This document shows, piece by piece, positions 826 through 44,375 of a stretch of 64,000 bases of DNA (positions are counted from its first letter, which is position 1; every line of letters begins with the position of its first letter). The stretch lies in NCBI RefSeq assembly GCF_000473165.1, contig NZ_KI421504.1:2143958-2207957 (forward strand). Reading direction: 5' to 3'. The position numbers and the translations under genes are program-made. This stretch comes from Leisingera aquimarina DSM 24565 (GTDB lineage: Bacteria; Pseudomonadota; Alphaproteobacteria; Rhodobacterales; Rhodobacteraceae). The notes beneath the pieces are model-generated. The model did not search any database, was not told the DNA's origin, and saw nothing but the letters and a program-made list of their open reading frames with translations.

Positions 826-850
826 GGAATTGATCCAGTGGATCAATTCC
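826..850. repeat. palindromic insert P1, copy a
   Basis: A perfect hairpin with 11-bp arms GGAATTGATCC (826-836) and GGATCAATTCC (840-850) around a 3-nt AGT loop. It sits in a roughly 45-bp stretch foreign to the surrounding IS3 OrfA coding sequence and introduces the premature stop. A 21-nt core is shared exactly with 44347-44367, inside a different IS3 remnant. Confidence 0.85.
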
Positions 851-937
851 CCGCCGAACCAGCGCCACGCTGTACAAGTGGCGAGCGAAGTACGGCGGCA
901 TGGACGCCAGTCTCATCAGTGAGAGCGAGCCTTTGTC

Positions 938-962
938 CGCCATTGATCCGAGGGCAATGGCG
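938..962. repeat. palindromic insert P3
   Basis: Perfect 8-bp arms CGCCATTG (938-945) and CAATGGCG (955-962) around a 9-nt loop. It lies in about 40 bp that separates two blocks of OrfA coding sequence (ASLIS and ENRRLKRMY) that should be nearly contiguous. Confidence 0.7.
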
Positions 963-1070
963 AGCGGCGATGGCCGAGGAGAACCGGCGGCTGAAGCGCA
1001 TGTACGCTGACGTCAGCATGCAGAACGACCTGCTGAAGGAGGCGCTCGGATAAGTAAGATCCTGAACGCC

Positions 1071-1147
1071 ACTGGTTCGAGAGAAGGATCGAACGATCCG
1101 GCCATCCATTGCCCGGCAGGGCATTGCGAAGCAATGTCCCGAGAGGG
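1071..1147. repeat. palindromic inserts P4 and P2 (copy a) between orfA and orfB
   Basis: This stretch holds GTTCGA...TCGAAC (about 1074-1095), the overlapping hairpin GGATCG-AA-CGATCC (1086-1099), and then P2 (1112-1147), whose inner hairpin is CATTGC-GAA-GCAATG inside CCCGGCAGGG...TCCCGAGAGGG. P2 recurs at 43779-43818 (inverted), 43898-43934 and 44276-44307. The CACTGGTTCGA block recurs near 43620 in the IS5 remnant. In a normal IS3 element this space is short and leads directly into orfB. Confidence 0.75.
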
Positions 1148-1861
1148 TCAACGCCGAGAGTTGGCCGTGAAAGCGGTGGCGATGAAGGGCGTCAGCATTG
1201 CGCTGGCATGCCGGGCGTTCGATGTCAGTGAGACGTGCTATCGGTACAGCCCGGAGCTGGACGAGGAGAACGAGCAAATCGCCGACTTGCTCCGCGGCCT
1301 GGCGGCTGCAAGGAAGACTTGGGGCTTTGGCCTGTGTTTCCTGTATCTGCGCAACGTGCAGGGCCACGCTTGGAACCACAAGCGCGTCTACCGGATCTAC
1401 CGCGAGCTGGAGCTGAACCTGCGGATCAAGCCGCGCAAGCGTCTGAAGCGGGAAAGGCCGGACGAACTGGCTGTGCCTGAGGCCCCGAATGAGGTCCGGT
1501 CGATGGACTTCATGGCCACCCGCTGCGCGATTTGAGGGCTGCGCGCGTGGCCATAACCTCTCAGCGGCTAATCTTCCCGACGTGCTACGGCCCGGAATAC
1601 GTCAGTGGCACCCTCATGGAATGGGCCGAGAACCGGGGCATTGCCTTGGCCTGCATCCAGCCCGGAAAGCCCCAGCAGAACGCCTATGTCGAGCGCTGCA
1701 ACCGGACGGTCCGGCACGAATGGCTTGACCTCTACATCTTCGAAAGCATCGAGGAGGTGCAGCAGATTGCCACCGCGTGGCTGTGGTCCTGCAACAACGA
1801 ACACCCCAACATGGGCAACGGCGGGATGACACCTGCACAGAAACTGAAGATGGCCGCGTAA
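1134..1861 (+). pseudogene. IS3-family OrfB (DDE transposase), internally deleted
   Basis: The N-terminal half contains KAVAMKGVSIALACRAFDVS, the KTWGFGLCFLYLRN block and KRVYRIYRELELNL, then the first catalytic region SMDFMA. At about 1515-1535 it runs into a TGA. Homology resumes in another frame with GPEYVSGTLMEWAENRG, QPGKPQQNAYVERCNRTVRHEW and the C terminus MTPAQKLKMAA. Roughly 55 residues of the rve core between the first and second catalytic aspartates are missing, so the enzyme cannot be active. Confidence 0.85.
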
Positions 1862-1898
1862 AATTCTACGACCAAGCCCCCGCAAAACGGGGGGATTA

Positions 1899-2030
1899 CC
1901 CCTCCATAAACCGCAGGAACTGCGAGCGCGTGAACTTTTTACGAAACACGACCGCCCCGTCAGCCACAGCCCCGTGCAACTGAAACACGTTTTTTCCGAG
2001 ATCTATGCCCATTATAGAAACGTTTTCCAT
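1899..2030 (-). pseudogene. IS110-family transposase, N-terminal part
   Basis: On the minus strand an ATG at 2028-2030, preceded by AGGAG, begins MENVSIMGIDLGKNVFQLHG. That is the DEDD-domain N terminus with the first catalytic Asp at residue 10. It continues to about RSQFLRFMEG, where the IS3-family element interrupts it. The rest of the protein is at 1-648. This fragment is too short for the usual ORF cut-off. Confidence 0.85.
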
Positions 2031-2129
2031 GGATGCCTTCTCCTCTCTTGCCTTTGGCTAACAACACCACAAGCTTGGCATATCGCGGTGCCGCCGGGGG
2101 AGAGCGGCATCCACCCCATCTTCTCAGCA

Positions 2130-2160
2130 GAAAGAAAAAGCGCCCGCCGAAGGCGGGCGC
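2130..2160 (-). terminator. Rho-independent terminator after the mutase gene
   Basis: Arms GCGCCCGCC (2140-2148) and GGCGGGCGC (2152-2160) with loop GAA. On the minus strand the stem is followed by TTTTTCTTT. It lies 43 bp past the stop of the minus-strand phosphomutase gene. Confidence 0.85.
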
Positions 2161-2202
2161 GGATCGCCTGCGTCAGCAGGCGAAATACCTCTTGGGTTGG
2201 GA

Positions 2203-3699
2203 TCAGATTGTCTGGTCGTAATCGCCGACCAGCGGCTCGGTGCGGATCACCGCGTCGATATCGGCAAAGATCGCCCGCATCTCCACTTCGCTGTCCGAAC
2301 TTTCGCAGACCACAACCAAGTTCGGGGTGTTCGAAGACGCGCGCACCAGCCCCCAGGAGCCATTGTCCAGGATCACCCGGGCACCGTTCACGGTGACAAC
2401 TTCCTTGATGGCGCGGCCGGCAAGGCTGTTGCCTGCTTCATGCTTGGCCACCAGTTTCTGCACCAGCCGCTCCAAAACGCCGTATTTCTCGGTGTCGGCG
2501 CAATAGGGCGACATGGTCGGGGTTGCCCAGGTCTTGGGCAGGGCCTTGCGCAGGTCGGACATCGACTGATCCGGGTTGCGGTTCAGCATCTTGCAGACCT
2601 CGACCGCCACCCGCATACCGCAGTCGTAACCGCGGCCGATGGGTTCCGCCAGGAAGTAGTGGCCGGACTTCTCAAATCCTGCCAGCGCGCCGATTTCCTT
2701 GACCCGCCGCTTCATGTGGCTGTGGCCGGTCTTCCAGTAATCGGCAGTGACGCCGTTCTTTTGCAGTTCGGGGTCAGAGGCAAACAGGCCGGTGGATTTC
2801 ACATCCGCCACAAAGGTCGCGTTCGGATAAAGTTTGGACAGATCGCGCGCCATGATCACGCCGACCTTGTCGGCAAAGATCTCCTCGCCTTCGTCATCCA
2901 CCACGCCGCAGCGGTCGCCGTCGCCGTCAAACCCCAGCGCCAGATCGGCGCCCGAGGCCTTTACGCTGGCCGACATGTCATGCAGCATTTCCATCGCTTC
3001 GGGGTTGGGGTTGTAATGCGGGAAGGTATAGTCGAGCCGGTTGTGGCTTTCGACCACCTCGACGCCCATGCGGGCAAACAGCTCGGGCGCAAAGGCCGAG
3101 GCGGTGCCGTTGCCGGTAGCGCAAACCACCTTCAGCGGGCGGGACATTTTGAAATCCCCGATCAGATCGTCGAGATAGGCGTCCTTGACGCCGTCTACGA
3201 ATTCATAAGAGCCGCCGGCAGCGGCCTGGCCTTCGCCGTTCAGCACGATATCTCGCAGCTCGCCCATCTCGTCCGGGCCGTGGGTCAGCGGGCGCTCAAA
3301 GCCCATTTTGACGCCGGTCCAGCCGTTCGGGTTGTGCGAGGCGGTGACCATGGCGACCGCAGGCACGTCCAGATGGAACTGGGCGAAATAGGCCATGGGT
3401 GAGACGGCGGGACCAATGTCCTTGACCTGGATCCCCGCCTGCATCAGGCCGAGGATCAGGGCGTTTTTGATCGCCAGCGAATAGTCGCGGTAATCGTTGC
3501 CGACCGCGATCACCGGTTCGATGCCGCGCTTGCGCATCTGGGTGCCCAGGCCCAGGCCCAGGGCGGTCATGCCGGGGAGGTTGATCTCCTCGGGGTATTT
3601 CCAGCGTGCGTCGTATTCGCGGAAACCCGTGGGTTTGATCATCGCGTCGCGCAGAAAGCTCCAGGTGTTCGGGGTCACCTCTGGCTGGGGTTTTGTCAT
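2203..3699 (-). CDS. phosphomannomutase/phosphoglucomutase
   Basis: A 498-residue alpha-D-phosphohexomutase that interconverts hexose-1- and hexose-6-phosphates to supply sugar nucleotides for surface polysaccharide. The catalytic phosphoserine is in TASHNPN (Ser121). The metal loop is DGDGDR (about 258-263), the sugar-specificity loop EKSGH (343-347) and the C-terminal phosphate-binding loop RASSNTPN (453-460). All four landmark loops are present and the length is normal. It is the last gene of a minus-strand run with kdsA and capsule-export genes, ending in a strong terminator. Substrate preference (mannose or glucose) cannot be decided from the sequence. Confidence 0.93.
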   Translation of the reverse strand: MTKPQPEVTPNTWSFLRDAMIKPTGFREYDARWKYPEEINLPGMTALGLGLGTQMRKRGIEPVIAVGNDYRDYSLAIKNALILGLMQAGIQVKDIGPAVSPMAYFAQFHLDVPAVAMVTASHNPNGWTGVKMGFERPLTHGPDEMGELRDIVLNGEGQAAAGGSYEFVDGVKDAYLDDLIGDFKMSRPLKVVCATGNGTASAFAPELFARMGVEVVESHNRLDYTFPHYNPNPEAMEMLHDMSASVKASGADLALGFDGDGDRCGVVDDEGEEIFADKVGVIMARDLSKLYPNATFVADVKSTGLFASDPELQKNGVTADYWKTGHSHMKRRVKEIGALAGFEKSGHYFLAEPIGRGYDCGMRVAVEVCKMLNRNPDQSMSDLRKALPKTWATPTMSPYCADTEKYGVLERLVQKLVAKHEAGNSLAGRAIKEVVTVNGARVILDNGSWGLVRASSNTPNLVVVCESSDSEVEMRAIFADIDAVIRTEPLVGDYDQTI

Positions 3700-3720
3700 C
3701 TCTGAAATCTCTTTGCTGGT

Positions 3721-4554
3721 TCAAATACGGATGGGATCGGCCTTGGCCAGCGCATCAAAGCGCATCAGGCTGCCGATGAGTTGCGGCATCTGATCCAGGT
3801 AGATCATGTTCGGCCCGTCGGACGGCGCGGAGTCCGGGTCCTGATGGGTTTCGATGAACACTGCCGAAATGCCGAGCGACACTGCCGCCCGCGCCATCAG
3901 CGGTGCAAATTCGCGCTGGCCGCCGGTGGAGCCGCCTTTGCCGCCGGGCTGCTGCACCGAATGGGTGGCATCCATCACTACTGGGTAGCCGCCCTGCGCC
4001 ATCTGCGGCAGCGACCGCATGTCAGCCACGAGGGTGTTGTAGCCAAAGGAGGTGCCGCGCTCTGTCAGCAGAATGTTGGTGTTACCGGTGCTTTCCACCT
4101 TGTCGACCACATTGGCCATGTCCCAGGGCGCCAGGAACTGGCCCTTCTTGATGTTCACCGCCTTGCCGGTGTTGCCTGCTGCCAGCAGCATATCGGTTTG
4201 GCGGCAGAGGAAGGCAGGGATCTGCAGGATGTCCACGGCCTCAGCCGCCACCGCGCATTGCGCCTCGGTATGCACATCGGTCAGCACCGGCACGCCGAAT
4301 TCGCTGCGGATCATGTCCAGGACTTTCAGCCCTTCATCCAGCCCCAGGCCGCGCTTACCGGACAGCGAGGTCCGGTTGGCCTTGTCATAGGAGGCTTTGA
4401 ACACAAACTGGGCGCCGGCCTTGTCACAGGCCTCTTTCAGCTGCCCGGCAATCATCCGGGCGTGATCTGCGGTTTCCAGCTGGCAGGGGCCGGCAATGAA
4501 TGTCAGCGGACAATCATTACCGATGGTGAGGCCGGCGATATCGATGTTTTTCAT
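3721..4554 (-). CDS. kdsA: 3-deoxy-8-phosphooctulonate (KDO-8-P) synthase
   Basis: This 277-residue TIM-barrel enzyme condenses phosphoenolpyruvate with arabinose-5-phosphate to make KDO-8-phosphate, needed for lipopolysaccharide core and for KDO linkers of capsules. Recognisable blocks are the N-terminal IAGPCQLE, FKASYDKANRTS, and the metal/substrate segment VMDATHSVQQPGG. Length is typical. Only 21 bp separate it from the downstream mutase gene and 15 bp from the upstream KpsE-like gene, so co-transcription is likely. The location beside capsule-export genes, rather than with lpxA/lpxB, suggests a supply role for a KDO-containing surface polymer (inference). Confidence 0.95.
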   Translation of the reverse strand: MKNIDIAGLTIGNDCPLTFIAGPCQLETADHARMIAGQLKEACDKAGAQFVFKASYDKANRTSLSGKRGLGLDEGLKVLDMIRSEFGVPVLTDVHTEAQCAVAAEAVDILQIPAFLCRQTDMLLAAGNTGKAVNIKKGQFLAPWDMANVVDKVESTGNTNILLTERGTSFGYNTLVADMRSLPQMAQGGYPVVMDATHSVQQPGGKGGSTGGQREFAPLMARAAVSLGISAVFIETHQDPDSAPSDGPNMIYLDQMPQLIGSLMRFDALAKADPIRI

Positions 4555-4569
4555 GAGCTTCCGATAGCT

Positions 4570-6294
4570 TTACGATGAGACCTGTTCTCGCAGGATCGAT
4601 GCGGTGAGCGAGCACATCAAGTAAATACCGGAAAAGATCAGGAAAGCCAAAATGGTATTCTCGAACTTGCGCGGATAAGACGGTTCCTGGCTGGGAACAG
4701 GCTCCACCGCGGTGGTCAGATAGCGGACCTGGCGGTTGGCCTCCAGACGGGTGGTTTCCACTTGCTGCAAGGCCGATTGCAGCATCAGGTCGCGGGTCGC
4801 GAGATCGGCCTGAGCCATCTGAATCTGGATCCGCAGATTGGCCAGCGAATTTTCGCCGGCTGAGGCGTCGATCATCCGGTTGTTGAGGCTGGCGATCACT
4901 GCTTTCAGCCGCCGGATGTCCGCCTCGGCGCCGGACACTTTTGCCCGGTTGGGCCGTGCATTGTCCTGCAGGGCGGCCAGTTCCAGCCGCTTTTCTTCCA
5001 GTTGGATTTCAAAGGTGCTGATTTGCTGGCGCAGAGAGGCCACCACCCCTTCGGGGTCCAGAACCGAACCTTTTTGCTGCAGCAGCACAAGCTGCTCCTG
5101 GGCGGCCCGGCGCTGCCCCTCGGCGTCAGACAGGGCGGATGCGGCTTCCGACATCTGGTCGGCGCGCTTTTGCTGCGAGAGGTTGTTCACTTTCTCCTGC
5201 GCGTAGGAAATCAGCTTGCGCGAAAATTCCGCCGCGGCTTCGGGATCGGCAGCAGAGACTTCCATCCGCACCACGCCCTCGGTCGGGTCATAGCCGATCT
5301 TCACGTTCCGGCTGTAGGTGGCATAGGCCTCCTCGTTTGTCGGGCCGCTCTCCAGCCGCTGGATCGGGTCCAGCCAGTCCTGGGTAAAATGCGCTTTGAA
5401 TCCGGCCTCACGGTCCAGCCGCAGCATTGCTTCCTTGGACATCAGGTAGCTTTGCACCGCAATTGAATCCTGACTGGTGGCGAACTGAGTGCCGGACAGC
5501 AAGCCGCCAACACCGCCGCCCGCGCTGTCGGCCTTAAGCACCAGGAACTCGGATTTGGAGGAATACATCGGCGTGGCCACCGAGTAGAAGTAAAACCCCG
5601 CGGCCAGCGTCGGCAGCAGTACGAAAAAGGCCAGCCGGGCGGCCAGCAAGGTCAGTTTGCGGCGGCGGCGGCGGGCGATATCGCGCTGAATTTCCTGGAT
5701 TTCACGGGTGCGCCGCTCTGCCGGGCTCAGCTCGGTTGAGGGCAGGGTGGTCTTTCCCGCGGGCACTGTCTGCGGCAGCTGGACCGATCCGGGCGCAGGC
5801 GGGGTGCCTGCGGGCTGCGCCTTGTTCTGCGGCACCACCAGTTCCAGCATATTGACGCGCTTGAACGGGTCGATGCCGCGCTCGCGCAGCATCCGCACGG
5901 CTTCAAAATCCGAGGTGGCGGCAAGGTTGTGTTTCTGCGCCATCCGGCGGGCCAGGCGCAATTGGCGGCCGGTCAGGCCTTCGTGACGGATCGCATCGAT
6001 ATCGGTTTCCTGCCGGGTCTCACGGGCCGAGCTGACCATGCCGGACAGCGCCGCGCCGCCAGGTTGCGCTTCAGCCGGATGGGCTGCGCCGGGATTTGCC
6101 GAGGCTGCCTGAGCTGCCGATGCTTCTGCAGGCGCCGCGGGCCGGGCGGCAGCAGCCGCTGTCCGGGCCTGGGGCTGTCGGGCCGGGCTTGCAGCCGCGC
6201 CTGACGTCTGAGGCTGATCCCCGGCGCCGCTGGCTCCGGCTGCTGCAGGGCTGCGGCGGATGCGGAACTTTTTAGCTCTCGGTTTCGTAGTCAT
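4570..6294 (-). CDS. capsule polysaccharide export inner-membrane protein, KpsE/CtrB-like
   Basis: A 574-residue polysaccharide co-polymerase-type protein that would link an ABC exporter to the outer-membrane channel. The start MTTKPRAKKFRIRRS (ATG at 6294) is chosen because it overlaps the end of the upstream ATPase gene by 23 bp; the open frame extends further but would overlap most of that gene. The first ~110 residues are Ala/Pro/Gln-rich and probably disordered. One transmembrane helix (LAARLAFFVLLPTLAAGFYF) precedes a Wzz-like periplasmic domain with long coiled coil, and a second helix (TILAFLIFSGIYLMCSLTA) lies near the C terminus. The long N-terminal extension is unusual beside the ~380-residue enterobacterial KpsE. 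Confidence 0.85.
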   Translation of the reverse strand: MTTKPRAKKFRIRRSPAAAGASGAGDQPQTSGAAASPARQPQARTAAAAARPAAPAEASAAQAASANPGAAHPAEAQPGGAALSGMVSSARETRQETDIDAIRHEGLTGRQLRLARRMAQKHNLAATSDFEAVRMLRERGIDPFKRVNMLELVVPQNKAQPAGTPPAPGSVQLPQTVPAGKTTLPSTELSPAERRTREIQEIQRDIARRRRRKLTLLAARLAFFVLLPTLAAGFYFYSVATPMYSSKSEFLVLKADSAGGGVGGLLSGTQFATSQDSIAVQSYLMSKEAMLRLDREAGFKAHFTQDWLDPIQRLESGPTNEEAYATYSRNVKIGYDPTEGVVRMEVSAADPEAAAEFSRKLISYAQEKVNNLSQQKRADQMSEAASALSDAEGQRRAAQEQLVLLQQKGSVLDPEGVVASLRQQISTFEIQLEEKRLELAALQDNARPNRAKVSGAEADIRRLKAVIASLNNRMIDASAGENSLANLRIQIQMAQADLATRDLMLQSALQQVETTRLEANRQVRYLTTAVEPVPSQEPSYPRKFENTILAFLIFSGIYLMCSLTASILREQVSS

Positions 6295-6931
6295 AGAGCT
6301 GTTTCGCTTCTTCCAAAGTGTCAAAAATGTGCAACTGGCCCTGCAGCAGGACCGCAGCTGAACGGGCAAATTTCTCCAGCGTCTTGGCTTGGTGGGAGAC
6401 GATGATGATAGTGGTTGTCGCCAGCCGCTCCTGCAGGATCTCGCCGGCCTTGCGGTTGAACTCCACATCCGTGGTGCTGGGCATGCCTTCATCGATCAAG
6501 TAGATGTCGAAGTCCAGCGCCAGCATCAGCGAGAAGCTGAACCGTGCCCGCATCCCCGAAGAATAGGTGCCAAGCGGCTGATCGAAATACTCCCCCAGGC
6601 CGCAAAGCCAGCGGCAGTAGGCCTCCACATAGTCGGGGTCCAGCCCGTACAGCTTGGCGATATAGCGGCAGTTTTCCATTGCGGACAGGCGGCTGATCAC
6701 CCCGCCCATGAACCCCAGCGGAAAGGAAATCTTGCAATTGCGCCGGATCTCGCCCTCATCCGGTTTTTCCAGGCCGGCCATCATGTTGATCAGCGTGGTC
6801 TTGCCAGTGCCGTTCGGAGCCAGCACACCCAGCGATTTGCCCGGCTCGACGCGGAACGACACACGGTCAAGGATTACCTTGCGCTGGGTCCCTGTCCAGA
6901 AGGACTTGCTGACGTTTTCAAACTCAAGCAT
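6272..6931 (-). CDS. capsule export ABC transporter ATPase, KpsT/CtrD-like
   Basis: A 219-residue ATP-binding subunit, the typical KpsT length, when started at MLEFENVSKSFW (6931). An upstream in-frame ATG at 7027 would add 32 Arg-rich residues and is disfavoured. Walker A is APNGTGKTT, the ABC signature is the degenerate YSSGMRARF, and Walker B is IYLIDEGMPST, all as in polysaccharide exporters. It should energise export of capsule or another lipid-linked glycan. The partner permease (KpsM) is not adjacent; the ABC-2 permease at 11479-12291 belongs to a different subgroup. Confidence 0.88.
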   Translation of the reverse strand: MLEFENVSKSFWTGTQRKVILDRVSFRVEPGKSLGVLAPNGTGKTTLINMMAGLEKPDEGEIRRNCKISFPLGFMGGVISRLSAMENCRYIAKLYGLDPDYVEAYCRWLCGLGEYFDQPLGTYSSGMRARFSFSLMLALDFDIYLIDEGMPSTTDVEFNRKAGEILQERLATTTIIIVSHQAKTLEKFARSAAVLLQGQLHIFDTLEEAKQLYDYETES

Positions 6932-7172
6932 TGCTGGTTCCGGTGCTGCTCGTGCGGCCCTCTTGCGGGCTCTGTCTGCCTCATATCCACATCGCGCTCT
7001 GACGCGCCCGTGGCTCTTTGGTATCAAAAGAGTGTTAATGGCCTACGCCGCGAATTTGGCCTTATTATGTCGAATTGTACCATAGTTGATCAATGAAGTT
7101 TTAACCAATTCGTCCCCGACCCGGGGTGAGGGGCGGGTTTTCTGCCGGCAAGATGGAAAGGCTGGGTAAGCG

Positions 7173-7790
7173 ATGACTGTTTCCAAGCGCGGGACAATGA
7201 GGGCGGGGCAGCAATTGAAGGCAGAGATTCGGGGCTGCCGGATCTGTGTCGGCCGCTTTGCCGCCACCGCCACAGCGCATGAGCCGCGCCCTGTGGTGTG
7301 GTTCCGCCCTTCAGCCCGGATCCTTATTGCCGGTCAGGCCCCCGGCGCACGGGTGCATGAAAGCGGCCGACCCTTTACTGACCCGTCCGGTGACCGGCTG
7401 CGCGTCTGGCTGGGCCTCACTGAGGCGGAATTCTATGACAAGGACCGGGTGGCCGTGGTGCCGATGGGATTCTGTTTCCCTGGCTATAATGAGAAAAAGG
7501 CGGATCTGCCGCCGCCTGCCGTGTGCAGCAGGACCTGGCATCATCAAGTGATGGCGCAGCTGCCGGATGTCCGCCTCAAGGTGCTGATCGGTGCTCATGC
7601 TCAACACTATCACCTGGGGGTGAAGGGGCCGGTGACGCCGCTGGTGCAGAGCTGGCGGGATCATGCGCCGCAGGTCTTCCCCTTGCCGCACCCGTCCTGG
7701 CGTAATACCGGATGGCTGAAGAAAAACCCCTGGTTCGAAGCCGAGCTGCTGCCGGTTTTGCAGGCCCGGGTGAAGGAGCTGATGCAATGA
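7173..7790 (+). CDS. uracil-DNA glycosylase family protein
   Basis: A 205-residue member of the UDG superfamily. The N-terminal active-site motif is IAGQAPG and the C-terminal motif is HPSWRN, matching the catalytic loops of base-excision glycosylases. Cysteines occur in GCRICV, GFCFPG and AVCSRT, but I cannot place an Fe-S cluster with confidence. A start at 7197 (MRAGQQL) is possible. It stands divergently from the polysaccharide block across about 240 bp. The stop overlaps the next gene's start (ATGA), so the two are co-translated. It probably removes uracil or a related damaged base; substrate range is unknown. Confidence 0.85.
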   Translation: MTVSKRGTMRAGQQLKAEIRGCRICVGRFAATATAHEPRPVVWFRPSARILIAGQAPGARVHESGRPFTDPSGDRLRVWLGLTEAEFYDKDRVAVVPMGFCFPGYNEKKADLPPPAVCSRTWHHQVMAQLPDVRLKVLIGAHAQHYHLGVKGPVTPLVQSWRDHAPQVFPLPHPSWRNTGWLKKNPWFEAELLPVLQARVKELMQ

Positions 7791-8578
7791 CCGAACAAAC
7801 TCCGTTGGACTTGGCTCATGCCGCGATGGAGGCCGCGCTGCAGGACGATGCTGCCCGGCTGCGGTTCTACGAACGGCTGGCGGATGCTGAGCTGTTTTTG
7901 ATGCTGACGGAAGAGGCCGCAGGAGAGCAGATCTCGCCTGAGCTGTTTGAGACACCTGAGGGTGCCTTTGTCCTGGTGTTCGACCGCGAGGAGCGGTTGG
8001 CGCAGTTTGCAGGCCGTGCAGTGCCATATGCGGCTTTGTCAGGCCGGGTCATCGCGCAGATGCTGGCCGGGCAGGGGATCGGGCTTGGGCTGAATCTGGA
8101 GGTGGCGCCCTCTGCCATCCTGATCCCGGCCGCGGCAATCGGCTGGCTGCATCAGACGCTTGGTCACGCGCCGCAAGAAGTGGAGGCCGGTATCACGGAG
8201 TTCACGCCGCCCTCAGGGCTGCCCGAGGCGCTGCTGAGGGCGCTGGATGCCAAGCTGGCAACCGCAGGCGGGCTGGCAGCGGCGGCCTATCTGATCGGGG
8301 TCCGCTATGAAGGCGGCGGACAGGGGCATCTTTTGGGCTTTGTTGGTGCCAAGGAGGCCGCTCAGGCGTCACTGGCTAAGGCTGCCAGCGAAGCGCTGAC
8401 CTTTTCCGGGATCGAAGCGGGGGCGATGGATGTGGCTTTCTTTGAGGCGGAAGACCCGGTTGCGGCAAGCCTGGCGCGGGCTGGATTGCGTTTCGACCTG
8501 CCGCAACCGCCAGAACCGGAAGCCTATCAGCCGGAGATTCCAGGCAGCGATCCGGACAAGCCGCCGCGGCTGGTGTAG
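7787..8578 (+). CDS. SseB-family protein
   Basis: A 263-residue protein starting at MTEQTPLDLAHAAMEAALQ. The ATG overlaps the preceding stop in an ATGA, which decides the start over an in-frame upstream position at 7712. The N-terminal half resembles the SseB domain (LADAELFLML, FVLVFDREERLAQFAG), a fold linked to serine-sensitivity enhancement in Escherichia coli but of unknown biochemistry. The C-terminal half contains an Ala-rich stretch and a Pro-rich tail (PPEPEAYQPEIPG). No membrane segment or signal peptide is visible. Confidence 0.75.
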   Translation: MTEQTPLDLAHAAMEAALQDDAARLRFYERLADAELFLMLTEEAAGEQISPELFETPEGAFVLVFDREERLAQFAGRAVPYAALSGRVIAQMLAGQGIGLGLNLEVAPSAILIPAAAIGWLHQTLGHAPQEVEAGITEFTPPSGLPEALLRALDAKLATAGGLAAAAYLIGVRYEGGGQGHLLGFVGAKEAAQASLAKAASEALTFSGIEAGAMDVAFFEAEDPVAASLARAGLRFDLPQPPEPEAYQPEIPGSDPDKPPRLV

Positions 8579-8917
8579 CGCTGCCGGCGCAGGGAGGGCG
8601 GGGCTCTCCCGCCTGCTCCAGCACATTTTCAAATGTGCCTCACAGTTGGGCGTGGCGCTGTGCTACGCACAGCGCGGGTCCTTGCTGAGAAGCGCTGAAG
8701 GGCAGGTTTGCCCGTCAGCGCCAGTTTGAGGTTTACCGCGTCAAGGGTAAACCGTGCGTGCCGCGCGGCTGCTAGCGCAGCCCGTGACCCGGCAAAAGCC
8801 GGGACGATGAAGGCGGACGAGAGAGCGCCGCGCGTCAGCGCGGCGCCGGGCCCAGGACCGCACAAAAGTATCCGGGCTTGCCGGAGATCTGCGGGCGCGG
8901 GAGGGTTCGGCTGGCTG
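8579..8917. repeat. intergenic cluster of palindromes between convergent genes
   Basis: No gene is supported here. The 339 bp consist largely of hairpins: GCACATTT-TC-AAATGTGC (8621-8638), CGCTGTGC-TAC-GCACAGCG (8656-8674), GTTTACC...GGTAAAC (8731-8752), GACCCGGC...GCCGGGAC-type repeats near 8787-8803, and GCGCCGCGC-GTCA-GCGCGGCGC (8825-8846). The flanking frame (GCGGGGCTCTCCCGCCTGC and CAGTTGGGCGTGGCGC) recurs at 17220-17285 around a different hairpin. The block GCGCGGCGCCGGGCCCAGGA recurs, with one change, at 40204-40223. Confidence 0.8.
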
Positions 8918-35573: not shown

Positions 35574-35598
35574 AACGCCCGGCGCGGGGCCGGGCGTT
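35574..35598. terminator. terminator between the small secreted protein and entericidin genes
   Basis: Arms AACGCCCGGC and GCCGGGCGTT with a 5-nt loop between two convergent small genes. Confidence 0.75.
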
Positions 35599-35619
35599 GC
35601 TGTCTCACACTCAATGGGC

Positions 35620-37190: not shown

Positions 37191-37326
37191 CCCGCAGGGC
37201 GCGGCATTGCGTCCCTAGGGATGCTGCCGTTAGACTGAACAAGAGGCCGGGCGCCGTTCAAAGGAGCGCCCGGAGTGCAGATAAAAACCACCGCGGCTGG
37301 CGGCGCGGAAAAAGGTAAGGCAACCG

Positions 37327-38751
37327 ATGCGAATGAAATTTCCGGCGAGTGTGTTTAAGGCTTTTGTATTTGCCGGCGGCGTGACGGCCACGGCGCTGCT
37401 GCCGCTGAAGGCCGCGGCGGACAACCTGTCCGACGCGATGATCGGCGCCTATAAGACCAGCGGACTGCTGGACCAGAACCGGGCGCTGCTGCGGGCTGCT
37501 GATGAGGACGTGGCCATTGCCGTGTCCCGATTGCGACCGCTGATCCAATGGACACTCACCGCCAGCCATACCTATTCCCGCAGCGTCAACCAGTTCGGTA
37601 ATTTCAACGAGTTCACCAACAACGATCTCGGCACCCAGATTCAGCTGACTCAGCTGCTGTATGACGGCGGCGAAACACGGCTGCGCAAACAGGCGGCCCA
37701 GGAACTGGTGCTTGCGGCGCGCCAGCAGCTGCTCAGCGTCGAGCAATCGGTGCTGATATCCGCCGTTCAGGCCTATGTCGGGGTCCTGCAGGGGCAGGAA
37801 AATGTCGCCCTGCGCCGCAACAACCTGCGCCTGCTGCTAGAGGAACTGAAGGCGGCCGAGGACCGGTTTGAAGTGGGTGAAGTGACCCGCACCGACGTCG
37901 CTTTGGCTCAAAGCCAGGTGGCGGCGGCCCGCGCCAACCTGACGGATGCCGAGGGAGACCTGCTGACGGCCCGCGCTACCTATCTGCAAATCGTCGGCCA
38001 CGCGCCGGGCGCGATTGCCGGCCAGCCCCGGCTGCCGTCGCGGGCTGTGTCCATCGACCGGGCGCAGTCCATTGCGGCGCGTAACCAGCCGGATCTGCTA
38101 GCGCAGCAGCATTCGGTCAAATCCGCCGACATTCTGGTCCGGGCGGCGGCCAAAGCCTTGGGGCCAAGCGTCAGCTTCCGGGCCACCGCGGGGCTGAGCG
38201 AGGATATCAATGACAACACCGGCACCGACTCGGATGCCTCTGCTTCGGTTACGCTGACTCAAGACCTGTATGCTGGCGGCCGCAACGCGGCGACCCGGCG
38301 GCGGGCCATTGCAAGTGCCGACTCGGAACGCGGTGCTCTGATCAATACCCAGCGCGCTGTGCGCCAGAATGTCAGCTCGGCGTTTTTCAATGTGGAAACT
38401 GCGCGGGCAACCCTGGTGTCCTCCAATGAACGGGTGCGCGCGTCCAAGGTTGCTTTTGACGGCATCCGGGAAGAAGCCACGCTGGGGGCACGGACGACGC
38501 TGGATGTGCTGCAGGCAGAGCAAGAGTATCTCGATGCGCAGACCGGGGAGGTGAACGCACGCGCCGACCAGGCCATTGCGGCCTATCAGTTGTTGCAGGC
38601 GCAGGGGCTGCTCACAGCCGAGCATCTGGGGCTGGCGGTCGAGATTTACGACCCGACGCTTTATTACAACTTGGTGAAGGACGCGCCTGCGCAATACAGC
38701 AAGCGCGGCAAGGATTTGGACCGGGTGCTCAAGGCCTTGGGACGTAACTGA
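37327..38751 (+). CDS. tolC: TolC-family outer membrane efflux/secretion protein
   Basis: A 474-residue outer-membrane channel of type I secretion and RND efflux. The signal peptide is MRMKFPASVFKAFVFAGGVT. Two repeats of the TolC fold are seen: LTQLLYDGGETRLRKQAAQE in the first and LTQDLYAGGRNAATRRRAIA in the second, each with beta strands and long alpha hairpins (FEVGEVTRTDVALAQSQVAA and ATLGARTTLDVLQAEQEYLD). The C-terminal region is periplasmic. It follows pcm by 136 bp and precedes the PopZ-like gene. Confidence 0.95.
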   Translation: MRMKFPASVFKAFVFAGGVTATALLPLKAAADNLSDAMIGAYKTSGLLDQNRALLRAADEDVAIAVSRLRPLIQWTLTASHTYSRSVNQFGNFNEFTNNDLGTQIQLTQLLYDGGETRLRKQAAQELVLAARQQLLSVEQSVLISAVQAYVGVLQGQENVALRRNNLRLLLEELKAAEDRFEVGEVTRTDVALAQSQVAAARANLTDAEGDLLTARATYLQIVGHAPGAIAGQPRLPSRAVSIDRAQSIAARNQPDLLAQQHSVKSADILVRAAAKALGPSVSFRATAGLSEDINDNTGTDSDASASVTLTQDLYAGGRNAATRRRAIASADSERGALINTQRAVRQNVSSAFFNVETARATLVSSNERVRASKVAFDGIREEATLGARTTLDVLQAEQEYLDAQTGEVNARADQAIAAYQLLQAQGLLTAEHLGLAVEIYDPTLYYNLVKDAPAQYSKRGKDLDRVLKALGRN

Positions 38752-38826
38752 CAATTCATCCTATCGGTTGTGCGGTGACGGGAAGGCCGCTACACTCTGA
38801 CTCAAGAGGCAAGAGTGGTTTATAAA

Positions 38827-40029
38827 ATGTCCGACCCAGTTACCCATGCTGAGATCGAAGATGTATTGTCCTCAATCCGCCGCTTGGTGAGTGATGACAG
38901 CCGCAGCGGTCCTGCTGCGCCGGAGCCTGCAGCCCGGCTGGTTCTGACGCCCGCGCTGCGGGTGCAGGCGGACGGTCCTGACAGCCCCCGGGCACCTGAT
39001 GATCCTGCAACTGATGATCCGGCAGCGGCAGAACCCGGGGCCGCGTCCGGCAGCTCCGGGCAGGCCGGGGATGGCTCTGATGCGGCGGCGTCAGCCGGCC
39101 CTTCAGAGACGGCGGGGGCCGGGGACGGCGCGTCCCTTCTGGAAGCGGAAGCCCCGATAGCCTTCCGGCACCGCAGCAACGTGGCTGAAACCACATCGCC
39201 CTTGGGTGACGGGCAGCCGGAGGTGGAGCGGGACACTGGTTTGCAGGCCGTCCAGACTGATCCGGGCCAATTGGACACAGGATACTTGGGCACAGACCGC
39301 TTGGATGCGGATCACCTGAGTTCAGACCCGGATGCAGGATCGAAACACCACCAACCGCAAGGCACGCCTGGTGCCGGGACAGACGCGCCTTGGGGCGACC
39401 CCAAGGCCACGCTTTTTGCCGCTGCCGCGGATGCGGAGCAGCCAGAGGGCGGCACAGACAATCTTGCTGTGGAAACTCCAGCGGACAGTCAGGTCCCGGA
39501 AAACAGTCAAGCCATTGAAACTGCCGGCGCCCGCGCCGCGTCAGTCGTGCGCAAAATTGCCGAGCTTGAGGCCCGCAGCGCCCGCGGGCAGGAGCAGGAT
39601 CCGCAGCAATGGGAGCCGGACAGCCAGACGGAGGCTCCGTTTGCCAGTACTGTCACCGACACCATCGAATGGCGGGACGAACCGCTCTCAGCCCGCCGTG
39701 CCGCTCCGCAGGACGAGGACGGCGCATCCGCCGTTGCTGATGCATACCGGGACGCAGGGGCAGACGTATTGGCAGGACCCGGCGTCAACGACGGCAGCGC
39801 GGTTGCGAGGGCGGAAACGGTAGCCGAAGCTGCTGTGGCCGGGGCTGCGCTGGATTCTCTGGCCGAGGCTGGTGACGGATATCTTGACGAGGACAGCCTG
39901 CGCGATCTGGTGGCCAGTATCGTGCGCGAGGAATTGCAGGGTCCGCTGGGCGAGCGTATCACCCGCAACGTGCGCAAGCTGGTCCGCCGCGAAATCCACC
40001 GCGCGCTGGCCGCGCAGGATCTGCTCTAG
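38827..40029 (+). CDS. PopZ-like (DUF2497-type) polar organiser candidate
   Basis: A 400-residue acidic protein. The N terminus HAEIEDVLSSIRRLVSDD resembles the Caulobacter PopZ client-binding motif (MEEILASIRRIISEDD). The C-terminal helices, about 355-400 (EDSLRDLVASIVREELQGPL and NVRKLVRREIHRALAAQDLL), resemble its oligomerisation region. Between them lie ~300 residues rich in Ala, Gly, Asp and Pro, predicted to be disordered and much longer than the PopZ linker. Order pcm-tolC-this gene supports the assignment. ATG 38827 is preferred; a GTG at 38815 is in frame. Confidence 0.72.
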   Translation: MSDPVTHAEIEDVLSSIRRLVSDDSRSGPAAPEPAARLVLTPALRVQADGPDSPRAPDDPATDDPAAAEPGAASGSSGQAGDGSDAAASAGPSETAGAGDGASLLEAEAPIAFRHRSNVAETTSPLGDGQPEVERDTGLQAVQTDPGQLDTGYLGTDRLDADHLSSDPDAGSKHHQPQGTPGAGTDAPWGDPKATLFAAAADAEQPEGGTDNLAVETPADSQVPENSQAIETAGARAASVVRKIAELEARSARGQEQDPQQWEPDSQTEAPFASTVTDTIEWRDEPLSARRAAPQDEDGASAVADAYRDAGADVLAGPGVNDGSAVARAETVAEAAVAGAALDSLAEAGDGYLDEDSLRDLVASIVREELQGPLGERITRNVRKLVRREIHRALAAQDLL

Positions 40030-40077
40030 ACCCTGCGGCGGCCTGCTGAGCTTGCCCGCGGATGGGATGACGTTCCC

Positions 40078-40101
40078 AAAGGCGCACTTTGGTGCGCCTT
40101 T
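40078..40101 (+). terminator. terminator after the PopZ-like gene
   Basis: Arms AAAGGCGCAC and GTGCGCCTTT with a 4-nt loop, followed by TTCTTTGG. Confidence 0.85.
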
Positions 40102-40109
40102 TTCTTTGG

Positions 40110-40290
40110 AGCTGTTGTGCAACCGAAGGGCAGGCCGCTCCGGAATGTCGCACTGCATGTGAAAAAGGGGCTGCTTCCGCCCGTTGGGCCCGGCGCCGCG
40201 CTCTGCGCGGCGCCGGGCCCAAGACCGCAGACGGGTCGGGCCGTGGCCAGAGCAAGCTGCGGACGCGGGAGGGCTTACCTTGCCCGATGG
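40110..40290. repeat. palindrome cluster between the PopZ-like gene and cobQ
   Basis: The main hairpin has perfect 15-bp arms GGGCCCGGCGCCGCG (40186-40200) and CGCGGCGCCGGGCCC (40206-40220). The adjacent blocks GCGCCGGGCCCAAGACCGC and GCGGACGCGGGAGGGCTTA have counterparts at 8838-8905. No gene is supported in this 180-bp stretch. Confidence 0.78.
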
Positions 40291-40294
40291 TGCC

Positions 40295-41755
40295 TTAGAA
40301 CGTCACCGGCCGGGACAGCTCCAGCAGCTGGTCCAGATCCATATAGCGTTCCAGATGGTCTGCCAGTGCATCCAGCGTCTCCTCGACGCCGTCCTCATAT
40401 CCGGTCTGACTTTCATGCCCCAGGCCGGCCAGCACCTTGGCGCGGAAGGCGTCAGAAGAAAACAGCCCGTGCAAATAGGATCCCTTCACCCGCCCGTCAG
40501 CAGAGGCCGCGCCCTCGGCCCGGCCATCGATGCTCAGCCAGGCACGGGCGCAGTCGGCCCCTGTGGTGCGGCCCATGTGGATCTCGTATCCGCTCACCGG
40601 CAGATTGCCGTCGCGGGTCACCGCCTCGGTCAGCGTGACACGCTTTTCGCCCGCCATCACCGTATGCACATCCAAGAGGCCCAGTCCCTCGACCTTTCCG
40701 GGCCGGCCGTCAACGCCTTCCGGGTCGTCGATGGTCTTGCCCAGCATCTGAAAGCCGCCGCATAGGCCCAGCACATGGCCGCCGCGGCGGTGATGCGCCA
40801 GAATGTCGATGTCCCAGCCTTGGCGGCGCAGATAGGCCAGATCGCCAATGGTCGACTTGCTGCCGGGCAGGATCACCAGATCCGCATCGGCGGGCAGGGC
40901 GCGGCCCGGCGGCACGATCTCCACCGTCACCTCAGGCTCGGCCGCCAACGGGTCCAGATCGTCGAAATTCGCCATCCGCTCCAGCTGCGGCACCACCACC
41001 TTGCAGGCGCCGCCCTGGCGCGAGGCGATGTCCATCATGTCCTCGGCCGGCAGTTTCCAGGCATCCCAGAACCACGGCACCACCCCCAAGCTGGGCCAGC
41101 CGGTGCGCGCGGCGATATCATCGCGGCCGCCGTCAAACAGGCTCAGCTCGCCGCGGAACCGGTTCACCATGAAGCCCGCAACCCGTTCCAGGTCCTGCGG
41201 CTCCAGCACCGCATGGGTGCCCACAATCTGGGCAATCACCCCGCCGCGGTGGATGTCTCCGGCAATCACCACCGGCACCTGCGCCGCACAGGCAAAGCCC
41301 ATGTTGGCAATGTCATTCTTGCGCAGGTTGGTCTCAGCAGGCGATCCCGCGCCCTCGATCAACACTAGATCGGCGTCTGCGGCCAGCCGCCGGTAGCTCT
41401 CCAGCGCCGCCTCCAGCAGTCCGGATTTATCGCGCATGAACGACCCGGCACCTTGGGTGCCGCGGCGCTTGCCCTGCACGATCACCTGGGCGCCGGTATC
41501 GGTCTCGGGCTTCAGCAGCACCGGGTTCATGTCAGTATGGGGCGCCCGTTTGGCTGCACGCGCCTGCAGCGCCTGCGCCCGGCCAATCTCGCCGCCCTCG
41601 GGCGTGACGGCTGCGTTGTTCGACATGTTTTGCGGCTTGAATGGTGCCACCTTCAGCCCGCGCCGCACATAGGCCCGCGCAAGCCCAGCCACGATGAGCG
41701 ATTTGCCGACATTGCTGCCGGTGCCCTGGATCATGATCGAACGCGCCCGTGTCAT
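40295..41755 (-). CDS. cobQ: cobyric acid synthase
   Basis: A 486-residue amidotransferase that amidates the b, d, e and g side chains of adenosylcobyrinic acid diamide. The ATPase-like domain begins [20 protein letters not shown] and contains [10 protein letters not shown] and [10 protein letters not shown]. The class I glutaminase domain has LCGGFQMLG (catalytic Cys), and KGSYLHGLF (catalytic His). ATG 41755 is selected; the frame to 41917 lacks homology. I did not see a cobalamin riboswitch upstream. Together with meaB it points to use of cobalamin in this organism. Confidence 0.95.
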
Positions 41756-41901
41756 CCTGCTGCCATCTCCCTGCCTGCGCCCCTGTGTCAGAGGTCTGCA
41801 TAGCAGCTTAGGCAGCGCCGTCCATGGGCGCTGTGCCGCAAGCGTCCCGCGGCAGCTGCCACGCGACAGTCTGCCCCTGCGGAAACCTTGGTGCGCAAAA
41901 G

Positions 41902-41930
41902 AAAAACGCGCCCCCAAAGGGCGCGCTTTT
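41902..41930 (-). terminator. terminator after the DUF6280-like gene
   Basis: Arms CGCGCCC (41907-41913) and GGGCGCG (41919-41925), with A-rich DNA on the left giving a T tract on the minus strand. Confidence 0.75.
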
Positions 41931-41953
41931 CGGCAATGCGGGGCAGAGGCCTT

Positions 41954-42271
41954 TTAGGCGGCTTCTGCCTGCGCAGCGTTGCGGCGTTCGCTTTCTTCAC
42001 GCGACAGTGCAACCGAGGTCCGCACACCGCGGCCCACGAAGTCCATCAGGCCTTCCACAACCCGTTCGTTCGGGTCGATACCGGCGCAGGACAGCACTTC
42101 GCGGCCATCGCGCGAGCGTGCCCAGCGGGCGATCTGTTCCGGGCCATTGCCGTATTTCTTGTCGTCGGCGATGGCATCATCCAGTGCGGCCAGGACAACG
42201 GCTGCAAACAGTTTGCGGGCGCGGTTGCCTTGCTCGTTATTATAAGCGGTGCCGTCTACGAAATCTCGCAT
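41954..42271 (-). CDS. DUF6280-like small protein
   Basis: A 105-residue protein, MRDFVDGTAYNNEQGNRARK, with an Ala-rich helical block (FAAVVLAALDDAIADDKKYG) and a conserved region GREVLSCAGIDPNERVVEGL. I recall this as a Rhodobacteraceae family annotated DUF6280, with no known function. It is divergent from efp across about 220 bp. It has its own terminator, so it is monocistronic. Confidence 0.7.
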   Translation of the reverse strand: MRDFVDGTAYNNEQGNRARKLFAAVVLAALDDAIADDKKYGNGPEQIARWARSRDGREVLSCAGIDPNERVVEGLMDFVGRGVRTSVALSREESERRNAAQAEAA

Positions 42272-42420
42272 CTCGTATCCCTTGTTGTTCTTGCTATTGC
42301 AATTTTCGGCGTAGCGCTGCTTATGGCGGAATTGTGACGATTCGGATAGAGCGCAGATGCATAGCTTTCATGCAAATTGCGCATACCTTATTCACACAGT
42401 CTCCATACCATATCCTTGTC

Positions 42421-42449
42421 TTGCCAGCGATCAGCCTGCCAGATATAGG
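42421..42449 (+). promoter_or_regulatory. sigma70-type promoter for efp
   Basis: TTGCCA at 42421-42426 and TATAGG at 42444-42449 with a 17-bp spacer, about 40 bp before the efp start codon. Confidence 0.5.
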
Positions 42450-42490
42450 GTCTTGCAAGTTTTCAACAACCATCCGAAAGGCATTTTCCC

Positions 42491-43054
42491 ATGCCCAAGA
42501 TCAACGGTAACGAAATCCGTCCCGGAAACGTCCTGGAACATAATGGCGGTCTGTGGGCAGCGGTGAAGGTCGATCACGTCAAGCCCGGCAAGGGCGGCGC
42601 CTTTGCCCAGGTCGAACTGCGCAACCTGCGCAACGGCTCCAAGCTGAACGAACGCTTCCGCTCGGCGGACAAGGTCGAAAAGGTCCGGCTGGAACAGAAG
42701 GACCAGCAGTTCCTTTATGAAAGCGACGGCATGCTGGTTTTCATGGACACCGAAACCTACGAGCAGATCGAATTGCCAGCCGAGCTTTTGGGCGACCGCC
42801 GCCCATTCCTGCAGGACGGCATGACCATCGTTGTGGAATTCCACGAATCCGAGGCGCTGAACGCCACCGTGCCGCAGAAAGTGACCTGCCAGATCGTTGA
42901 GACCGAGCCGGTCGTCAAGGGCCAGACCGCGGCCAATTCTTTCAAGCCCGCGATCCTGGACAACGGCGTCAAGGTCATGGTGCCGCCGTTTGTCGGCCAG
43001 GACGAGATGATCGTTGTCAATACCGAGACCATGGAATATTCCGAACGCGCCTGA
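42491..43054 (+). CDS. efp: elongation factor P
   Basis: A 187-residue translation factor that relieves polyproline stalling. The conserved loop [10 protein letters not shown] carries Lys34, the residue modified in some bacteria; no modifying enzyme gene is in the window. Domains II and III follow normally, ending with [20 protein letters not shown]. Length and N terminus [19 protein letters not shown] are standard. A terminator at 43077-43105 ends the transcript. Confidence 0.97.
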
Positions 43055-43076
43055 GCCGCACCGGAGTTGAGATCAG

Positions 43077-43105
43077 AAAACCCCGCTCCAACAGAGCGGG
43101 GTTTT
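43077..43105 (+). terminator. terminator after efp
   Basis: Arms AAAACCCCGCTC and GAGCGGGGTTTT with a 5-nt loop followed by CTTTTGG. Confidence 0.88.
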
Positions 43106-43778
43106 CTTTTGGACCACCGTCATACGGCCTTCAATGCTGCACACACCCGGCCCGCCTTCAAGTGGCTGGATTGAGCTCAAACTGACGGATGCGGCGCAAC
43201 TTTCAAAGGTCTGCGATTAAGGTCTGTCATGGTCAGGCAAAGCCCTTTTTGGTGTCACCGATCAGACCTGTTCGTTTGGACAAGACCTGATTTCGAAGGG
43301 CAAAGTTATGCCTGGTCGGGGCTTTGTTGCACAAATTTCCTGATGGGATTCATACCGTGTCTCCAGCATGGTAGCTTGGCGGCATGAGCAGTTGGAACCC
43401 CACGGCCTGCAAGACGACGAACCGGCAGGATTGCAATGATGCGCTGAAGCCGCGCAGGTCCTTGCCGGCCCGGTTTGAGCCCGGGATGATTTGAACACCG
43501 CCGCCGCATGGCAAACGGGGCCGGCAGCAGCGCTTCAGCAATGCCGCGGTTCAGACCTGCCTGACTTTGAAAGCTCTGTTCGGGATGCCCCAGCGGCAGA
43601 GTGAGCCAATGACGGTAGCACTGGTTCGATCCCGCTGGCGAACGGTTTGTGCAGAGCCTTCTGCAGTTGGTCGGGCTGGAGTGGCAGCGGCCGGATTTCA
43701 GCACGCTGTGCTGCAGGCGAAAGACGGTGAACGCCAGCCTGCCGTATCGGGGCGGCACCGGACCGCTCACCCTCCTGA

Positions 43779-43818
43779 TCCCCTCCCGGTGGTGCTTGCA
43801 TCGCCTGCCGGGCAGTGG
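43779..43818 (-). repeat. palindromic insert P2, copy d (inverted)
   Basis: The minus strand reads CCACTGCCCGGCAGGCGAT, GCAAGCACC, ACCGGGAGGG, matching the P2 framework of 44272-44310 in opposite orientation. It separates LTLL and DSTG of the transposase, which are nearly contiguous in intact relatives. Confidence 0.7.
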
Positions 43819-43897
43819 ACAGCACTGGCATCAAATCCGAAGGCGAAAGCGAATGGAATGCGCGCAAGCATGGAGGCCCCAAACACCACATCCACTG

Positions 43898-43934
43898 CCC
43901 GGCAGGGCATTGCGGAGCAATGCTCCGGGAAGGG
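43898..43934 (+). repeat. palindromic insert P2, copy b
   Basis: CCCGGCAGG then GCATTGC-GGA-GCAATGC then TCCGGGAAGGGG. It lies between GGPK and KIHIG of the IS5 transposase and adds about 14 foreign codons. Confidence 0.8.
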
Positions 43935-44045
43935 GGCAAAATACACATCGGGGCCGACGGGAAAACGCTGGCAGTTCGGGCTGTGGAGGTCACCAGCAGC
44001 AGTGCCGGGGGGGGCGCCCAATGTCCGAATTTCGGGGAGTAGCCC

Positions 44046-44200
44046 AGACCCGCACCAATCCAAGAACTGAACGACACGATTGATAGCTTTTGGCCTATCG
44101 TCACCGAAGAGGAACTGGATCAATACATGATTTTGGAAAATGATCCGAAGTGGGGGCGGCAGGTGGTGACCTGCCCCTCCGCAAAATCCTTCGCCATGAA
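44046..44200 (+). other. fragment of unknown origin between IS remnants
   Basis: One frame reads ELNDTIDSFWPIVTEEELDQ then YMILENDPKWGRQ, with no start or recognisable domain. It ends in a hairpin GGCAGGT-GGTG-ACCTGCC near 44159-44176. It looks like a scrap of a gene or the tail of an IS, and I cannot assign it. Confidence 0.35.
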
Positions 44201-44262
44201 GTAGAGTCTGCCCAACTTATGTAGGAGCAGACGAATGCGTGAGAGCCGTTTCACCGAGGCGC

Positions 44263-44321
44263 AAATCATCCGCTGCCCGGCAGGCGATTGCGAAACAATC
44301 TGCCGGGAGGGTGGATGATTT
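44263..44321 (+). repeat. palindromic insert P2, copy c, with extended arms
   Basis: The inner hairpin is CCCGGCA (44276-44282), GATTG...CAATC, TGCCGGG (44301-44307). Outer arms AAATCATCC (44263-44271) and GGATGATTT (44313-44321) are also perfectly complementary, and part of these arms belongs to the OrfA target sequence. Confidence 0.8.
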
Positions 44322-44343
44322 AAGAACAGGAGTTCAAGCGTTA

Positions 44344-44375
44344 GGCAATTGATCCAGTGGATCAATTGTAGTGCC
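44344..44375. repeat. palindromic insert P1, copy b
   Basis: CAATTGATCC (44346-44355), loop AGT, GGATCAATTG (44359-44368), with outer GGCA and TGCC. The core is identical to that of 828-848 in the other IS3 remnant. Confidence 0.85.

Follow-up and report, generated by a model that had tools for sequence, protein, structure and literature searches.

Among described short palindromes, those near to the elements reported here include the repetitive extragenic palindromic sequences (REPs) and the REPINs associated with RAYT transposases: palindromes of 20-40 nucleotides (nt), present in high copy and in several families per genome, some REPs lying inside genes. REPs are predominantly extragenic and tagged by GTAG or CGTC (PMC3733652); Rickettsia palindromic elements (RPEs) are about 150 bp long and placed in frame in unrelated metabolic genes (PMC10969869). 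In a 64,000-nt stretch of Leisingera aquimarina DSM 24565 (contig NZ_KI421504.1, positions 2,143,958 to 2,207,957; the window below), and more widely in marine Rhodobacteraceae, hairpins of about 40 nt and of at least two kinds occur repeatedly in the transposase genes of many unrelated insertion sequences (IS), and among the copies examined they are rare elsewhere.

These hairpins behave somewhat like REPs, sharing their size range, copy number and multiplicity of families, but are not members by tag, place or enzyme: P2, the module followed most closely here, lies nearly always in transposase DNA (copies examined), is untagged and shows no correlation with Y1 transposases. Like RPEs, the modules are palindromes within coding genes and fall into several families; unlike them, they measure about 41 nt and sit in transposase genes, usually out of frame (only nine of the 50 net lengths divide by three). 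They share with miniature inverted-repeat transposable elements a short, structured, repeated and non-autonomous nature, but neither a target duplication pattern nor a parent IS was found, and a repeat search over the fetched loci, which was not exhaustive, brought to notice no ends shared with an autonomous IS. P2 may also fit the IS200/IS605-derived pattern of insertion without duplication 3' of a short target, given an uncertainty of 1-3 nt. Group II introns housed in IS are likewise mobile elements that prefer other mobile elements, but they are far larger, and the window has no Rfam match at gathering scores. Bypass elements such as the mitochondrial byps and that of T4 gene 60 are also short hairpin inserts in protein genes; however, the testable module-bearing copies of this genome seem to evolve as dead genes would. 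No described palindrome family with a preference for transposase genes irrespective of IS family came up in the open-access literature searched, mostly at the level of titles and the opening lines of abstracts.

Modules within transposase remnants of the window

A preliminary description of this stretch had proposed that short palindromes recur within three remnants of unrelated IS. The remnants, and the modules that they carry, are as follows.

646..1900, + strand: IS3-family remnant with four modules inside, aligned with the insert-free copies L202, L203 and L205; terminal inverted repeats at 647-670/1877-1900
813..859, + strand: P1, class B (GTGAG...CGAAC); net +43 nt, 4 nt of target replaced
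925..965, + strand: P4, class B (GCGAG...CGAGC); net +37 nt; missed by the preliminary description
1054..1094, + strand: P3, class B (GTAAG...CGAAC), containing the CACTGGTTCGA block; net +37 nt, 4 nt replaced
1107..1147, + strand: P2, class A; net +41 nt relative to insert-free IS3 copies
43319..44037, + strand: IS5/IS4-type transposase remnant (bounds of the preliminary description), its homology drawn through DDE_Tnp_1 / DDE_Tnp_1_5 homologues (Pfam)
43615..43643, + strand: second CACTGGTTCGA block, GTAGC...CGAAC, 29 nt; putative degenerate class B module with putative ends
43781..43817, - strand: P2, class A, reversed and with a different stem sequence
43893..43933, + strand: P2, class A; net length estimated at 39 against a diverged open reading frame (ORF)
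44235..44538, + strand: second IS3-type remnant, orfA part (bounds of the preliminary description); its flank matches an ORF of L039
44271..44311, + strand: P2, class A, at the QII codons (IS3 orfA), an insertion site shared with other IS3 copies
44332..44379, + strand: P1-type module (GTTCAAGCG...CGAAC) with the P1 core, its 5' end lacking the G[TC][GA]AG tag

The recurrences first reported stand: the P1 core is found at exactly 829-847 and 44348-44366 (shuffled sequences average 0.01), CACTGGTTCGA has two exact copies, at 1070 and 43619, and the four P2 copies occur in both orientations, the second cluster of the window holding three of them (one reversed) and the P1-type module. The second CACTGGTTCGA block is shorter than the P3 module, and 44235-44538 is presumably of the IS3 type, given its flank match and an OrfA motif. 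What was first taken for one small palindrome is two classes that differ in their ends and insertion outcomes: P1, the CACTGGTTCGA block at 1054-1094 and the module at 925-965 form a second class, distinct from P2.

The proposal that each insert breaks a reading frame holds for all four modules of the first remnant (originally bounded at 649-1898), where net additions of 43, 37, 37 and 41 nt, measured against IS3 copies of named plasmids that lack the inserts (L202, L203, L205), would each alone disrupt the frame; this remnant has also suffered a deletion in mid-orfB. It is not confirmed for the second cluster, where the P2 at 43893-43933 has an estimated net length of 39, a multiple of three. 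The replacement of 4 nt at the P4 site is seen in L042 and L043.

Scanning the window for the class B signature with a fold below -15 kcal/mol returned three hits, all in P1 and P4; the scan misses P3, whose fold is weaker. A loose P2 pattern (three mismatches) was found nine times, against a shuffled mean of 2.96, with one of 100 shuffles reaching nine. This excess is weakly above chance, and it is a genome-wide model search that carries the weight instead.

P2 as a covarying family concentrated in transposase DNA

That search used a covariance model (R1) built from 76 P2 copies and scored 150 of 5126 candidates in this genome, giving 80 matches at an E-value of 0.001 or better, which collapse to 40 distinct sites; foreign loci contributed 116 distinct flanks. 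P2 is a real family with a strongly covarying stem: across the 76 sequences, 91.1% of stem cells are paired (79.0 when shuffled), 82 cells are changed on both sides (23.2 when shuffled), and the covariation score is 0.280, against 0.082 for shuffled alignments and 0.03-0.10 for slid structures, in a MAFFT alignment that was not guided by structure. The element begins with C[AG][CT]TGCCCGG and ends with GAGAGGGG; its constant parts are C[AG][CT]TGCCCGGCAG and CGAGAGGGG (105 normal-length copies of 127 distinct flanks), and the centre varies by subfamily yet remains palindromic. By our own reading, the consensus holds no stop codon. On a Leisingera thetidis plasmid (L284:525-947), a P2 ends the reading frame of an annotated tyrosine recombinase, supplying its last residues.

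Among 101 genomes, comprising this one and relatives, P2 is present at an E-value of 1e-6 in 33, amounting to 33 of the 61 from the same family and none of the 40 from other families. Numbers within the genus range from 0 to 60, this genome (G000), G002, G003 and G019 being rich in P2 and G001, G005 and G008 poor, and counts such as the 60 in G002 are lower bounds, stricter filters having been applied and 61 candidates scored per genome. In a pattern scan of GTDB species genomes at least 110 stretches match; the 80 listed are, as we take their names, nearly all Rhodobacterales, the exceptions being some uncultured alphaproteobacteria and a single Enemella record. The latter, Enemella evansiae contig L102, from what is presumably an actinobacterium, carries an IS5 copy of Rhodobacterales type with several P2, which could reflect contamination or transfer; we suspect contamination. 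Plasmid records matching P2 at E-values up to 1 number 110, mostly from roseobacters by name, and three of them from Paraburkholderia; pDSHI04, a plasmid of Dinoroseobacter shibae DFL 12, carries several P2. No P2 match was found among 50,697 phage records, and three IMG/VR contigs match.

Pfam assigned 27 of the 39 long ORFs matching P2 flanks to transposases, resolvases or integrases (counting L149:1-735, just under the cut-off, and L158, labelled by HTH_38 alone) and named nine IS types; of the other 12, nine had no Pfam match and three were NMT1, RmlD and Hint_2. The 27 labelled ORFs and their homologues, 408 ORFs in all, then served as the homology test set for every site. Within 60 nt, homology lies on both sides of 33 of the 40 own sites, on one side of four and on neither of three (37/40 on either side), and for foreign sites the corresponding counts are 81, 19 and 16 of 116 (100/116 on either side). 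Within 500 nt, they become 36, two and two of 40, and 85, 22 and nine of 116.

Random positions judged by the 60-nt rule on either side score 22/400 in the window, 48/400 in plasmid stretches and 22/400 in foreign loci; by the 500-nt rule, 34/400, 73/400 and 41/400. The plasmid set consists of four stretches picked for holding P2, and the foreign set lies beyond 1 kb of any P2. These positions replace an earlier control by per-base coverage (4.7% and 8.5%), which did not match the flank criterion, and the matched control bears out the concentration of P2 in transposase DNA. The suggestion that the palindrome might settle in any non-essential DNA finds no support, with transposase or recombinase homology within 500 nt at 38 of the 40 own distinct sites and within 60 nt at 37.

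Five of the nine foreign sites without such homology within 500 nt nonetheless resolve to mobile DNA: L069 and L150 lie next to HTH_29/HTH_32 proteins, which we take to be IS630-like, L084 is by an IS110, L072 by IS21-type domains, and L071 is by eye an IS3 orfA. Of the remaining four, L048 falls at the end of a contig, L105 proved not to be a P2, L137 is near an NMT1_3 gene, and L052:1346-1383, among the few P2 outside transposase DNA, is beside a RelE-like gene.

Insertion outcomes of the two classes

Comparison with empty sites gave ends and net lengths for both classes. Relative to insert-free ORFs, P2 adds 41 nt at 29 of 50 sites, 40 at seven, 42 at four, 39 at four and other lengths at six, leaving a remainder modulo three of two in 30, one in 11 and zero in nine; for the other 106 of the 156 sites a usable insert-free ORF was lacking, and not every one of the 50 comparisons is independent. 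An initial impression of in-frame tolerance (61/100 in frame) was dropped, its references possibly holding P2 themselves; the cleaned set gives the 9/50 above.

On its left side the target leans to [CT]CATC, and insertion occurs near ATC|G. Of 32 comparisons at the DNA level, 27 show an offset of 0 or -1 nt, three of -2, one of -3 and one of +1, and no target duplication longer than 1-3 nt was seen. Relative to the transposase, 93 P2 are antisense and 52 sense, at sites that are not all independent, and the insert-free comparison gives 30 to 20. The variable positions of P2 show no sign of guide-like pairing with the flank, the maximum mutual information being 0.17 where shuffling gives a mean of 0.16; a single pair scores higher (0.29), and its positions, 3 and 38, both lie inside the element.

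Identical insertion sites with near-identical P2 recur in IS copies whose synonymous distances are near 1. Repeated insertion at a favoured sequence is the simplest explanation, since ATC|GG or something near it is found at both the QII codons (IS3 orfA) and the LIG codons (IS5-type gene); exchange between IS copies could also produce this pattern. One IS3 copy (L061:860-1838) holds five P2 and one P4, with a P2 at the junction of a deletion that looks like recombination between two P2 copies.

Searching the loci de novo for repeats yielded the further module families. P1, P3, P4 and P5 share the ends G[TC][GA]AG...CGA[AG]C and measure 40-47 nt. Class B cores matched 215 times, though many of these matches are copies that overlap or palindromes alone; both end tags were present in 82, and the other 133, including the second P1-type module of the window with its missing 5' tag, were dropped. 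The 82 reduce to 22 distinct pairs of flanks, and for 18 of these an insert-free homologue exists. Among the 18, the target has lost 4 nt in 13 (several being the same site in related IS copies), 5 nt in three and 7 nt in one; the last gives -3, its tag apparently being wrongly placed. Under looser tags, 19 of 23 distinct elements have T-A or C-G as their second and last-but-one bases, so pairing of the two ends is probable, the predicted fold placing a tandem G-A mismatch between them.

Transposase homology flanks both sides of seven of eight distinct P4 sites, all three P3 and the single P5, and for P1 pattern hits it is present on both sides in 11 of 13, on one in one and on neither in one (one site being hit on both strands). 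Of four P1 matches fetched from plasmids, three lie in transposase-like DNA and one is intergenic. This last, a P1-like palindrome of Rhizobium lentis (L280:880-945), lies between genes, preceded by GTGAG and followed by CGAAC, so relatives of class B may occur in intergenic DNA of Hyphomicrobiales.

How the hairpins may move, and why they lie in transposase genes

The core of the preliminary description holds on a larger scale than first reported, and as a whole it is partly confirmed. Its interpretation is supported in part: insert-free homologues speak for a mobile, non-native palindrome entering the coding regions of unrelated IS. On balance, we favour a reading in which two classes of non-autonomous mobile hairpins enter transposase genes, are moved by some enzyme and spread with the IS. 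Class A (P2, about 41 nt) would join the target beside an ATC|G-like site, with no clear target duplication, and class B (40-47 nt) would replace about 4 nt of the target, a loss that suggests a staggered cut with its ends removed. The mover would probably recognise a folded single strand, DNA or RNA, since the stems covary whilst their sequence varies; together with the paired ends, these stems suggest that the form which moves is a folded single strand. HUH enzymes, as in IS200/IS605, use a single-strand cleavage chemistry, and the lack of clear duplication in class A would fit cleavage of that kind.

Hairpins would thus preferentially enter transposase genes, usually breaking the frame, and could spread with the IS because related transposases may go on mobilising the disabled copies in trans. 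Indeed, four IS5-type copies of this genome (L019, L020, L027, L166) share the same five modules in four different flanks: this element has moved since the modules came in, probably in trans. The argument that P2 is not co-inherited within one IS therefore stands in part; both orientations occur, but some of the recurrence is co-inheritance, module-bearing copies having moved as units. The preference itself could come from access during transposition, from recognition, or from selection plus hitchhiking; we infer that it arises at insertion and not by later selection.

Several points weigh against this reading. No mobilising enzyme was found, the Y1 transposases not tracking P2, and one mechanism may not serve both classes, their outcomes being different. 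Five of the 18 class B comparisons depart from 4 nt (5, 5, 5, 7 and -3), and the 133 untagged core matches of 215 had been dropped before that count. Lengths were taken from diverged homologues and not from direct parents, several comparisons representing the same site in related IS. The changes between own copies are few (10-15 per pair), and their dN/dS, the ratio of non-synonymous to synonymous substitution rates, says little about a master copy. Lastly, two of the 40 own sites, L258:1161-1200 and L260:1166-1205 (G000 C1:2306861 and C2:51266), are intergenic, beside a GAGTATTTG-type motif; both P2-like matches have the same GGCGGC stem and are possibly another, intergenic, repeat family.

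A bolder version, which we advance tentatively, is a dedicated, hitherto undescribed insertion system that would recognise transposon DNA regardless of IS family and write end-paired hairpins into transposase genes. If so, it would have two outcomes, the addition of 41 nt or the replacement of 4 nt by 40-47 nt, and would act either as a genome defence against IS or as a parasite of them.

It is possible, though we think it doubtful, that insertion is instead nearly random, copies elsewhere being lost or harmful and those that silence a transposase being favoured, or amplified as the IS move. IS copies that bear modules have indeed multiplied, a silenced transposase should on general grounds help or at least not hurt the host, and the P2 beside the RelE-type gene would sit well with such a process. 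However, sites were counted once each and not by copy, and neutral intergenic DNA would be expected to hold copies too, where just two of the 40 own sites are found. The distinction matters: a preference arising at insertion would mean that something in these bacteria distinguishes transposon DNA irrespective of IS family, and one arising by selection would leave a clean natural record of IS inactivation. In either case interrupted transposase genes pose difficulties for annotation, and the number of intact IS counted in Rhodobacteraceae may be inaccurate.

That P2 is a REP or REPIN moved by a Y1 transposase of IS200/RAYT type, a link raised in the preliminary description, is unlikely. A short hairpin, a short target motif and the lack of clear duplication would suit it, and this genome has three Y1 genes, one with a stop; but P2 and Y1 numbers are unrelated (60 and 0 in G002, 31 and 0 in G019, 3 and 4 in G004), the consensus has neither a GTAG nor a CGTC tag, and P2 is not extragenic. 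The P2-rich G002 and G019 gave no match to PF01797, a search that a very diverged enzyme could escape.

Slightly less probable still is that the modules are tolerated, by ribosome bypass or removal from the message, and the transposases still work. Foreign module-bearing IS5-type copies mostly have dN/dS of about 0.03-0.2, both mutually and relative to insert-free copies (higher with L053), which fits recent insertion or the continued function of some; and of 14 foreign genes, five have no more stops than insert-free copies and one none; the P2 consensus, as noted, also reads without a stop. Yet eight of the 14 have extra stops, in a comparison that left out frameshifts, and low foreign dN/dS may predate insertion. 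Removal of class B would not restore the sequence, about 4 nt being missing. In this genome, the five-module copies evolve at a dN/dS near 1: L019, L166 and L027 differ pairwise by 1-4 synonymous and 9-11 non-synonymous changes (dN/dS 0.88-2.91), a seemingly unconstrained divergence that argues weakly against function, since any transposon leaves daughter copies that are free to diverge. The truncated L024 was excluded (dN/dS 0.75-0.77 in its pairs, at a synonymous distance, dS, of 0.28), its aligned end being other sequence. The IS3 copies L005 and L006 carry an aspartate-to-glycine change in what we presume to be the DDE region, which the window copy lacks.

Finally, that the modules are ordinary IS parts or chance hairpins is highly improbable: some IS copies do share modules at the same place across several genomes, but many sites have insert-free homologues and P2 is found in unrelated IS families.

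Further observations on the host copies

Other IS5-type copies of this genome (the L277, L278 and L279 set) include two with only P5 and a P2b variant, and a more diverged copy at C5:10715-11386 has none of the five modules; the latter could be a helper. Hypermutation of IS copies resembling repeat-induced point mutation was considered and set aside for want of a clear bias: the own IS5-type copies lean from A:T to G:C (19 transitions versus 7), but the own IS3 copies (15 versus 17), L043 and the controls do not. An imperfect inverted repeat of about 97 nt (CTGAAGC...GCTTCAG) lies at 43444-43540, within the IS5-type remnant of the window.

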